This document shows, in pieces, positions 6,448 through 39,124 of a stretch of DNA of 64,000 nucleotides (its first letter is position 1; every line of letters starts with the position of its first letter). The stretch comes from Novosphingobium lentum NBRC 107847 (GTDB taxonomy: Bacteria > Pseudomonadota > Alphaproteobacteria > Sphingomonadales > Sphingomonadaceae): the NCBI RefSeq assembly GCF_001590965.1, contig NZ_BCTW01000009.1, positions 62,001-126,000 on the forward strand. The letters are read 5' to 3'. Both the position numbers and the translations under genes were made by a program. Below the pieces are notes generated by a model. It had not been told where the DNA came from and made no database searches. It saw only the letters and a list, made by a program, of their open reading frames with translations.

Positions 6448-6873
6448 ATGAACCGTTTGTTGTCGTCGATGACCCTGCCGCTGGCCACGGTGCTGCTGCC
6501 GGCCAGCGCCCTGGCGGCGCCGGTGGTGCTCACCGCCACGCTGACCGGCGCGGCGGAAACCGCCGGCGGCGATGCCGATGGCGCCGGCACTTTCCGCGCC
6601 GAGGCCGATCCCGATTCGGGCGATTTCTGCTACAAGCTCACCGGCGACAAGATCGCCAAGCCGACCATGGCGCATGTCCACACCGGCGCGGCGGGCGCCG
6701 ACGGCCCGCCGCTCGCCACGATCGACGTCACCGGCCCCAAGGACGACGAATGCGTGGCGATGGAGCCCGCCAAGATCAAGGACATCGTCGCCAATCCGGC
6801 CGGTTACTACGTCAACATCCACACCGCCGACTACCCCAAGGGCGCGCTGCGCGGCCAGCTGGCGAAGCAGTAG
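6448..6873 (+). CDS. Secreted CHRD-domain protein
   Basis: A 141-residue protein with an N-terminal signal peptide (hydrophobic to about residue 24, cleavage near ALAA-PVV) followed by one CHRD domain. Domain hallmarks are the opening LTATLTGAAET, the central MAHVHTGAAG and the closing YYVNIHTADYPKGALRGQL. CHRD domains, first named from chordin, occur singly in many bacterial exported proteins of unknown role. I chose the ATG at 6448 because it follows GAGGAGA; an in-frame ATG at 6427 lacks such a site. Two Cys residues (FCYKL and DDECVAM) may pair. Confidence 0.88.
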   Translation: MNRLLSSMTLPLATVLLPASALAAPVVLTATLTGAAETAGGDADGAGTFRAEADPDSGDFCYKLTGDKIAKPTMAHVHTGAAGADGPPLATIDVTGPKDDECVAMEPAKIKDIVANPAGYYVNIHTADYPKGALRGQLAKQ

Positions 6874-6929: not shown

Positions 6930-6959
6930 GAAAATGAGGGCCGGCATCGCTGCCGGCCC
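6930..6959 (-). terminator. Terminator-like hairpin ending the candidate RNA
   Basis: A perfect 9 bp stem (GGGCCGGCA/TGCCGGCCC) with a GCGA loop on the minus strand, followed by TCATTTT. It would end minus-strand transcription coming from argG or from the candidate RNA. It could also stop readthrough from the CHRD gene on the plus strand, although no T run is present there. Confidence 0.55.
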
Positions 6960-7540
6960 CCACGCTCGCCCACCACTGGCGGATTGCCACTTTGCCTGCA
7001 CCGATGTCCGTGTGCGGATTGCCTTCGGGGCACGAAGCCCCTGGGCCGCTGCCGTCCGGGTTTTCAAGCCGTCGGGCCGCTATCCGCTTCGGTTCAACCG
7101 GCTGCCGGTCTTGCGACCGGCGCGGCGAAGCGCGTTTCACCGGCCTCTCGGCCTGGGGTTGGCGTCGATCTTTTTCCCGCAGCACCGCTCCTGCTGTCAC
7201 GACACCTTGCGGCGCCTTTCGGGCAGACGGCCTTCCACGAGGAAAGGATCGCTTCGGTTCTGGTTTTCGGGCCTGTTCCGCCATTGTCAGGATGATCGAA
7301 ATCATCCTGCCGACCGGCGTTCGAAAGTCCGCGTTCCATGGCCGTCCGGCACCAGCTTTTCCGTTGATTCTCTGGCCGTGAAGTTCGTGCCGGAACACGA
7401 TTTTCAGGGCCGTTGAAGACGGTTGACTTGTACCGCATCGATGCGAAAATTTCGCTGTAAGTTCAGTGGTTTGCACCTCGATCTTCAGTTCGGTTTCTCG
7501 CTCCGACACAGGAATGCTGCGCTCTGTTGACGAGTCGTGC
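6930..7540 (-). ncRNA. Candidate large structured RNA downstream of argG
   Basis: This ~600 bp stretch between argG and the CHRD gene has no convincing ORF: the longest minus-strand frame lacks the G/C-rich third positions of neighbouring genes. It contains a series of short stable hairpins whose loops are standard RNA tetraloops only when read on the minus strand: UUCG at 7288-7309 (9 bp stem), GCAA at 7201-7216, GAGA at 7142-7153, GCAA at 7105-7120, UUCG-like at 7027-7041 and GCGA at 6938-6959. The 7201-7216 stem needs two G-U pairs that exist only on the minus strand. The last hairpin is followed by TCATTTT and looks like a terminator. No RNase P, tmRNA or SRP RNA hallmarks were found. The 5' end is a guess. 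Confidence 0.5.
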
Positions 7541-7620
7541 AAGCAGAAAATGCGCGCACTTATCCACAGGCAGTCCGATTGCGGTGGACAACCGTTTTGA
7601 TGCGTTGATTCGAGTGGAAT

Positions 7621-8838
7621 TTACCGGTCGCGCTGGGCCAGCAGGCGCAACCGCAGCGCGTTAAGGCGGATGAAGCCCGCCGCGTCCTTCTGGTCGTAGG
7701 CGCCGGCGTCATCCTCGAACGTCACGTGGCGCTCGGAGTACAGGCTGTCGGGCGATTTGCGGCCGACCACTTGCGCCATGCCCTTGTACAGCTTGAGCCG
7801 CACGGTGCCGTTGACCCCGGCCTGGCTGTGATCGATCGCGGCCTGCAGCATCTCGCGCTCCGGAGCGAACCAGAAGCCGTTGTAGATCAGCTCGGCATAC
7901 TTGGGCATCAACTCGTCCTTGAGGTGCGCGGCCCCCCGGTCGAGCGTAATCTGTTCGATACCGCGATGGGCGCGGGCGTAGATTTCGCCGCCCGGCGTCT
8001 CGTACATGCCGCGGCTTTTCATGCCGACGAAGCGGTTCTCGACCAGGTCGAGCCGGCCGATGCCGTGCTTGCGGCCAAGCTCGTTGAGCGCGGTGAGCAG
8101 CGTTGCCGGGCTCATTGCCGTGCCGTTCAACGCCACGCCGTCGCCGCGTTCGAAATCGACCGTGATGTATTCGGGCACATCCGGCGCGTCCTCGGGGTTG
8201 ACCGTGCGGCTATAGACGTAGTCGGGCACTTCCTCCCACGGATCCTCGAGCACCTTGCCCTCGGACGAGGTGTGCAGGAGGTTGGCGTCGGTCGAGAACG
8301 GGCTTTCGCCGCGCTTGTCCTTGGGCACGGGGATCTGATGCTGTTCGGCCCAGGCGATCAGCGCGGTGCGGCTGGTGAGATCCCATTCACGCCACGGTGC
8401 GATGACCTTGAGATCGGGCGCCAGCGCGGCGACGCCAAGCTCGAAGCGAACCTGATCGTTGCCCTTGCCGGTAGCGCCATGGGCGACCGCGTCGGCGCCG
8501 GTCTCGCGGGCGATCTCGACCAGCCGCTTGGAGATCAGCGGGCGGGCGATCGAGGTGCCGAGCAGATAGTCGCCCTCATAACGGGCGTTGGCGCGCATCA
8601 TCGGGAACACGAAGTCGCGCACGAATTCCTCGCGCACATCGTCGATGTAGATATGCTCGGGCTTCACCCCCATCAGCACCGCCTTCTCGCGCGCCGGTTC
8701 CAACTCGCCTTCCTGGCCGAGATCGGCGGTGAAGGTCACCACCTCGCAATTATAGGTGACCTGCAGCCACTTGAGGATGACGGAGGTGTCGAGGCCGCCC
8801 GAATAGGCAAGGACGACACGCTTGATCGGCTCGGACAT
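7621..8838 (-). CDS. argG: Argininosuccinate synthase
   Basis: A 405-residue cytosolic enzyme that joins citrulline and aspartate using ATP, the penultimate step of arginine synthesis. The N-terminal PP-loop ([15 protein letters not shown]) binds ATP. Other family blocks are [14 protein letters not shown] and the [18 protein letters not shown] segment. I took the ATG at 8838 ([15 protein letters not shown]), the normal family start; the longer frame upstream is an Arg-rich, non-conserved extension. No other arginine genes are adjacent. The gene is followed on the same strand by the candidate structured RNA. Confidence 0.97.
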
Positions 8839-39049: not shown

Positions 39050-39124
39050 TGGTGGGCGTAGCAAGGATTGAACTTGCGACCCCTACGATGTCAACATAGT
39101 GCTCTACCACTGAGCTATACGCCC
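39050..39124 (-). tRNA. tRNA-Val (anticodon GAC)
   Basis: A 75-base cloverleaf on the minus strand. The acceptor GGGCGTA pairs with TACGCCC, the D arm is GCTCAGTGGTAGAGC, the anticodon loop TTGACAT (anticodon GAC) sits on a CTATG/CGTAG stem, and the T arm is GCAAGTTCAATCCTTGC. CCA is encoded. Confidence 0.96.

Follow-up and report, generated by a model that had tools for sequence, protein, structure and literature searches.

A candidate gene for a large structured non-coding RNA behind argG in Novosphingobium and related sphingomonads

Introduction

What occupies the gap between argG and the convergent CHRD-domain gene in the window, the whole stretch of 64,000 nucleotides of Novosphingobium lentum DNA that we analysed? 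A preliminary description had pointed to about 600 bp lacking any recognisable gene and holding at least six stable hairpins, and had suggested either a conserved RNA gene or a long 3' region of argG. The emptiness of the gap is borne out, as four open reading frames tested from it (two per strand) have no match in Pfam, and the hairpins are there too: the best fold of the minus strand contains eight with stems of at least 3 bp. The question is what such a structure would be for, and whether it belongs to argG or to a gene of its own.

To address this question, we compared the locus with its counterparts in other genomes of the genus and family. We find that a structured region is kept behind argG, with abundant covariation, a promoter-like motif ahead of it and no conserved reading frame, which argues for the RNA gene. 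The long argG 3' region is the poorer fit, because the promoter-like motif precedes the RNA and because, in two loci, argG is first followed by a separate terminator-like hairpin.

Results

Layout of the locus

The features of the locus, in the order of the plus-strand coordinates, are as follows.

6448..6873, plus strand: CHRD-domain gene (Pfam PF07452), the convergent neighbour, outside the proposed unit
6930..7507, minus strand: proposed structured RNA of about 578 nt (window fold and loops, orthologue structure; 5' end placed from the promoter-like motif)
6930..6963, minus strand: putative intrinsic terminator, a 13-bp GC-rich stem at 6934-6963 with a GCGA loop, then TTTT (best fold; similar hairpins in orthologues)
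7104..7121, minus strand: hairpin with a 7-bp stem and a GCAA loop (best fold)
7201..7216, minus strand: hairpin with two G-U pairs and a GCAA loop (best fold)
7288..7309, minus strand: hairpin with a 9-bp stem and a UUCG loop (best fold)
7437..7507, minus strand: 5' domain, stacked helices in one long hairpin with a GCAA cap at 7468-7477 (fold and comparison with relatives)
7519-7514, minus strand: proposed -10, CAGCAT
7517..7543, minus strand: promoter-like motif CTTGCACGACTC-N9-GCGCAG (fixed spacing in 27/27 argG-linked Novosphingobium loci picked by RNA similarity; also in other genera)
7532..7536, minus strand: GACTC, a methylation site of the GANTC (CcrM) type, lying between the proposed -35 and -10 (GANTC in 28/31 cluster genera)
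7542-7537, minus strand: proposed -35, TTGCAC
7560..7568, plus strand: perfect DnaA box TTATCCACA, here box III, inverted relative to box II (conserved in relatives)
7583..7591, minus strand: DnaA-box-like site TTGTCCACC, here box II (sequence reading; cluster kept in relatives)
7621..8838, minus strand: argG, argininosuccinate synthase, 405 aa (Pfam PF00764 and PF20979), the conserved upstream neighbour in orthologous loci

Read along the minus strand, the gap thus runs from DnaA-box-like sites through the promoter-like motif and the structured region to the terminator, with a distance of only 77 nt between the argG stop and the promoter-like motif. Elsewhere in the window, a tRNA gene (39053-39124, minus strand) is the sole Rfam match at threshold. 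In the rest of the N. lentum genome, a 42-base stretch (G000:C1:211592-211633) resembles the RNA region (83% match, E 8e-4), probably by chance.

The minus strand folds with stable loops

In the best fold of the minus strand from 7507 to 6930, the eight hairpins are accompanied by two with 2-bp stems. Their loops are GCAA (7468-7477), UCCG (7385-7400), UUCG (7288-7309), GCAA (7201-7216), GCAA (7104-7121), UUCGU (7027-7041), AAUCC (6977-6989) and GCGA (6934-6963). Thus, six of the eight are closed by GNRA or UNCG loops, compared with a mean of 0.375 in eight dinucleotide shuffles and with 0/10 on the plus strand. The preliminary description was right that standard tetraloops mark the minus and not the plus strand, and right about the two G-U pairs in the stem at 7201-7216; some of its details had to be redrawn. 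A true UUCG tetraloop exists at 7288-7309, and the loop of hairpin 7027-7041 is instead the pentaloop UUCGU. The 3'-most hairpin, placed by that description at 6938-6959, does stand before a T-run, with a longer stem than described (13 bp, 6934-6963), and a proposed GAGA hairpin (7142-7153) is absent from the full-length best fold.

The same strand preference is found in relatives. Of the 72 orthologues in which a terminator was recognised, we counted loops in 40, the window and 39 others drawn at random: stable loops average 3.65 in the sense strand, 0.24 in shuffled sequences and 0.08 in the antisense strand, and the sense strand exceeds the antisense in 40/40. The stretch 6930-7620 is also more stable than shuffled sequence (z -4.8 for the minus strand and -3.2 for the plus strand, 20 shuffles each). 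That the plus strand beats its shuffles too, as it does in 40/40 orthologues, follows from the palindromic nature of the stems, which must fold on both strands.

The unit is kept behind argG

In many of 99 genomes of the genus (N. lentum included), a DNA search returned pieces that are collinear and lie on the same strand. Among the 31 loci taken from this search (L001-L031), 27 contain argG, the window's own included; in the other four (L002, L025, L026 and L029) the stretch examined holds no argG. The motif CTTG..CGACTC-N9-GCGCAG stands behind argG in all 27 argG-containing Novosphingobium loci, a count that gives no prevalence because the loci were picked by RNA similarity. When a slightly longer exact motif was searched, at least 57 of 117 stretches among the matches listed had a same-strand argG at a distance of 101-404 nt upstream; these include stretches from Novosphingobium (most of the named records), Erythrobacter, Parerythrobacter, Tsuneonella and Pontixanthobacter. 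Three further loci (L055, L124 and L139) look like true copies whose argG falls outside the stretch. Most other stretches among the matches listed belong to unrelated bacteria, such as Massilia and Arthrobacter, and were rated as chance.

At the level of the family, the exact motif occurs in 39 of 397 genomes, against 3 of 397 for the motif read backward, and argG lies upstream in 29 of the 30 exact-motif family loci fetched. The genome of N. lentum has a single site for the exact N9 pattern. In fact, in true orthologues argG is the upstream neighbour on the same strand wherever the neighbour can be read.

We then sampled the family with one genome per genus (96 genomes, 95 genera). All 96 have argG, and the stretch downstream of it was read in each, one contig ending at argG and another after 943 nt. 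A regular expression drawn from known members found the DnaA-box-like cluster in 31 of the 96, no further than 330 nt behind argG, and was unmatched there in the remaining 65. For the RNA, 31 of 96 is a lower bound, since three loci (L200, L216 and L227) keep the promoter-like motif with 0-2 mismatches yet escape the cluster expression. In two divergent genera (L273 and L275) a box cluster follows argG and the promoter-like motif is altered; these are possible distant forms of the RNA. In four loci lacking the cluster (L198, L199, L205 and L224), argG is closely followed by what by eye appears to be one shared type of secreted-protein gene, and this gap downstream of argG may be where a gain or loss of the RNA took place.

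As for its place on the chromosome, the distance between the locus and rsmG, which we take as a proxy for the origin, is about 0.6-0.8 of a half-chromosome in 9/9 genomes, by arithmetic with partly rounded genome sizes.

Base pairs covary while the sequence diverges

The strongest comparative evidence comes from erythrobacter-type orthologues. From the loci at hand we dropped incomplete ones (L056, L071 and L096) and duplicates (L165, L179 and L186), and from the 23 unique sequences two that were too divergent (L083 and L162). On the 21 that remain, RNAalifold gives a consensus of 95 pairs; for 54 of these, one or more sequences show a change of both partners. The consensus energy is -92.7 kcal/mol, against -25.1 +/- 3.9 for 60 column-shuffled alignments and -48.7 for the reverse strand. 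Cells of the alignment that should pair do so in 92.6% of cases, against 82.2% when partners are shuffled and 30-44% when the register is slid, and all five pair measures exceed 500/500 shuffles and the six slid registers, the pair counts ignoring kinship.

Three Novosphingobium groups, none of which includes the window, were aligned separately. With 8, 7 and 15 sequences they yield z-scores of -9.7, -14.0 and -7.5 (30 shuffles each) and 19, 49 and 16 double-changed pairs, respectively. The window itself was aligned with three relatives over the 5' 123 nt, where the consensus has a z-score of -4.8, 5 of its 25 pairs are double-changed, and the helices follow each other in the order of the erythrobacter consensus. 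It is for this 5' domain that the window's hairpins were followed individually into other genomes, and its inner helices can be seen by eye in eight of nine single Novosphingobium folds (missing in L020).

How, then, are the window's RNA and that of the erythrobacters connected? Joint alignments with MAFFT, whether they took in 60 Novosphingobium 5' regions, a subset of 12, or 21 erythrobacter and 9 Novosphingobium hairpins, gave no consensus fold beyond a trivial one, the sequences being too divergent for this program. A model of the erythrobacter 5' domain (R1) found no match in the window's RNA and reached E < 0.1 in 6 of 25 other Novosphingobium loci. Over the 96 family genomes it matched 35 at E up to 0.5, and the 19 matches of at least 37 bits all adjoin argG by coordinates, several being training sequences of the model. 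A weaker match away from argG, at 28.4 bits the best of those in G151, G107 and G143, looks coding-like by eye, has neither motif nor boxes and is probably due to chance. A second model (R2) does match the window, at 6932-7064 and 27.3 bits; we dropped this match as proof because it is probably carried by the terminator hairpin, a palindrome that R2 also scores on the wrong strand, at 15.5 bits. Given that R1 misses the window and joint alignments fail, the view that the two are one RNA rests on the shared locus, promoter motif, terminator and 5' hairpin. In certain Novosphingobium loci (L009, L027, L030, L031 and others) a similar internal block, GGCAG(C/T)GATGCCCGCAG.AG..GTCGGAAAAC, lies about 80-110 nt behind the promoter-like motif; the window's RNA does not have it.

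Both ends carry transcription-like signals

Of 29 loci of erythrobacter type, a script recognised terminator-like hairpins in 26, and the remaining three are stretches that stop too soon. It did so in 49 of 60 loci of Novosphingobium type, where some are doubtful (L005, L134), and missed the window's own hairpin, which is evident in the fold. The 72 orthologues delimited in this way measure 442 to 854 nt, mostly 450 to 700, with a median of 577. At the other end, that the proposed -10 is far from the E. coli form is no objection, since more than 80% of N. aromaticivorans promoters lack the -7 T (PMC8407463). In two loci, L005 and L014, a strong terminator-like hairpin followed by a T-run stands directly behind argG and ahead of the promoter-like motif. 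The expressions applied found no DnaA-box-like cluster in these two, and the promoter-like motif is kept.

DnaA-box-like sites and a GANTC site accompany the promoter-like motif

In erythrobacters the cluster reads TTATCCAC-N-GTCCAC-N-GTGGATAA. It consists of three DnaA-box-like sites at near-constant spacing, two of them co-directional and one opposite. The exact three-box pattern occurs in 14 of the 96 family genomes, at one site in each, and all 14 sites lie behind argG by coordinates; the reversed pattern occurs in 0/96. Outside the family it was found in 0 of 285 genomes (from a class sample of 289, in which the sole match is a family member, G112). It is absent from the genome of N. lentum, which keeps two boxes and lacks the erythrobacter box I, and many Novosphingobium loci likewise have two boxes only.

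The sequence GANTC is the site of the methyltransferase CcrM. It is found 12-30 bp after the cluster in 28 of the 31 cluster genera, a count that ignores kinship, where the local frequency would predict 0.047 per locus. Across the 31 loci the variants are GACTC (21), GAATC (5) and GATTC (2). Where the usual site is lost, in L209, L222 and L238, another stands 6-7 bp further on; L212 has GAATC at the usual place, and L223, L262 and L273 have no GANTC in the range tested. In Caulobacter, a GANTC between -35 and -10 marks a group of promoters whose activation comes at 40-60 minutes, within a defined interval of the cell cycle (PMC4287350). The argG-linked motif shows this same arrangement of CcrM/GcrA promoters, a conserved GANTC between the -35 and -10 that we propose, and conserved boxes lie upstream of it, to which DnaA binding can be predicted from likeness to the box consensus.

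No Rfam family accounts for the proposed RNA

Rfam 15, searched at the locus and in 15 relatives, returned sub-threshold matches only. RNase P RNA, which the preliminary description had failed to recognise here, is indeed not at the locus: RF00010 has no match there, and the genome's copy is found at G000:C14 with 260 bits. A riboswitch or leader was set aside as well, because the CHRD gene is convergent and the RNA would end in a terminator, which leaves no same-strand gene behind the RNA in the window. We found no description of an RNA behind argG in sphingomonads in the open-access papers searched; in text searches, "Sphingo" has 0 mentions in PMC11109978 and 1 in PMC8632094, on another motif.

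Discussion

A proposed RNA gene with its own promoter and terminator

What comparison across genomes brings out as conserved is the predicted structure, its strand, the promoter-like motif, the GANTC, the box cluster and the terminator-like hairpin. To explain these results we propose that a large structured non-coding RNA, of a new family outside Rfam, has its own independent gene here, is controlled by DnaA and by CcrM/GcrA and acts in trans, an explanation that we hold to be the probable one, with room for doubt. From these features we infer transcription, control by DnaA, GcrA and CcrM, and action in trans. RNA polymerase would initiate some 7 nt downstream of CAGCAT, the -10-like element, and stop at the GC-rich terminator, both signals being read from sequence. 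DnaA bound to the cluster, at roughly -50 to -95, would tie synthesis of the RNA to chromosome replication, and methylation by CcrM of the GANTC between -35 and -10, read by GcrA, would do so as well; it is these sites that suggest a link to the chromosome cycle. The RNA would fold into several hairpin domains and act in trans, as an RNA or as an RNA-protein particle. Its structure and its terminator suggest this mode of action, as does the fact that in the window no gene on the same strand follows it.

A more specific version of this proposal is that the RNA belongs to a new ornate class and is gated by replication: through the DnaA boxes and the CcrM site it might be made in one burst per chromosome cycle in Novosphingobium and the erythrobacters and help to control replication or division. 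We offer this as a tentative idea, somewhat less likely to be right than wrong.

Alternative explanations

The alternative that survives best keeps the RNA gene and changes its control: the promoter would be an ordinary housekeeping one, the cluster would be bound by another regulator, and the GANTC would belong to an extended promoter element. In fact, CTTG...CGACTC...GCGCAG is long and nearly fixed, as such an element would be, and the case for DnaA is likeness to the box consensus. Yet G, A, T and C of the GANTC are kept while the N varies (21/5/2 of 31), and replacement sites appear elsewhere in the spacer in L209, L222 and L238, a pattern that fits methylation better than a fixed element. 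We therefore regard this alternative as unlikely, though it deserves to be kept in mind.

Could the structure be the 3' end of the argG mRNA, stabilising or processed, with no gene of its own? It does lie on the same strand, behind argG wherever the neighbour can be read, and at a short distance from the argG stop in the window (77 nt). However, a conserved promoter-like motif of fixed spacing, with box cluster and GANTC, precedes the RNA, and it is for this reason that we prefer an RNA gene over a 3' region. A cis role in the argG mRNA is made less likely by the conservation of this promoter-like region and by L005 and L014, which would terminate argG before the motif is reached; with several domains and 440-850 nt, it would in any case be an unusual 3' region. 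This explanation seems to us improbable.

Scarcely better, and in our estimate slightly worse, is the possibility that the locus is in the first place a DNA site for handling DnaA, by titration or by reactivation as at DARS, with the RNA as a by-product or structural spacer. Such a site would account well for three DnaA-box-like sites, one of them opposite, at near-constant spacing and, in the exact form, once per genome in 14 genomes; the core of E. coli DARS also has three boxes with one opposite (PMC5742627). It would leave unexplained why the RNA structure covaries and is strand-specific, and why there are a promoter-like motif and a terminator; moreover, the motif persists where the window and many Novosphingobium loci have two boxes and L005 and L014 none.

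Finally, an unrecognised or decayed protein-coding gene is very hard to credit: the stretch does hold GC-rich frames of up to 219 aa, and the median longest sense frame of 99.5 aa exceeds the 69 aa of mononucleotide shuffles (72 sequences), but the four frames have no Pfam match, the longest sense frame ranges from 32 to 201 aa among the 72 orthologues and drifts in position so that no reading frame is conserved among them, only 44 of 359 gap runs have a length divisible by three, and 7 of 21 sequences have a sense frame that stays open over 70% of their length.

Comparison with known systems

Large structured RNAs are uncommon in bacteria, and finding new classes has led to new biology. The proposed RNA gene is retained by roughly one in three genera in a family that has been studied well, its sequence diverging fast while its fold is kept, and the sites at its locus point to the chromosome cycle. 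With regard to DnaA, DARS1 and DARS2 of E. coli have three DnaA boxes, one inverted (PMC5742627), and the erythrobacter cluster has three DnaA-box-like sites, one of them opposite; unlike them, the argG cluster stands just upstream of a promoter-like motif and a proposed RNA, and has two boxes in the window, and any activity of it on DnaA would be putative. With regard to the cell cycle, CcnA is described as a non-coding RNA of the Caulobacter cell-cycle network (PMC8959179). CcnA shares the alphaproteobacterial cell-cycle setting that we propose, and the argG-linked RNA is set apart from it, by description, as large, structured and located at argG.

Among RNA families, the best sub-threshold Rfam match at the locus is to asX1, an sRNA of Xanthomonadaceae (RF02235), which covers two hairpins including the terminator and scores 25.3 bits against a threshold of 70. 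RNase P RNA (RF00010) is large and has GNRA loops, as does the argG-linked RNA, but it has no match at the locus. The closest in kind are OLE, GOLLD, ROOL and the raiA motif, families present in Rfam that measure several hundred nucleotides, with many covarying helices, stable tetraloops and no open reading frame. The argG-linked RNA is likewise large, with many covarying helices and stable tetraloops and no frame of its own; unlike these families, it has no Rfam match, was found here only in sphingomonads and beside argG, and has DnaA-box-like sites and a GANTC in its promoter-like region. As an RNA family it would be new; by loose kind alone, it would be a new member of the large structured bacterial RNAs. 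If our proposal is true, it would be, to our knowledge, the first large structured RNA under epigenetic, replication-coupled control.
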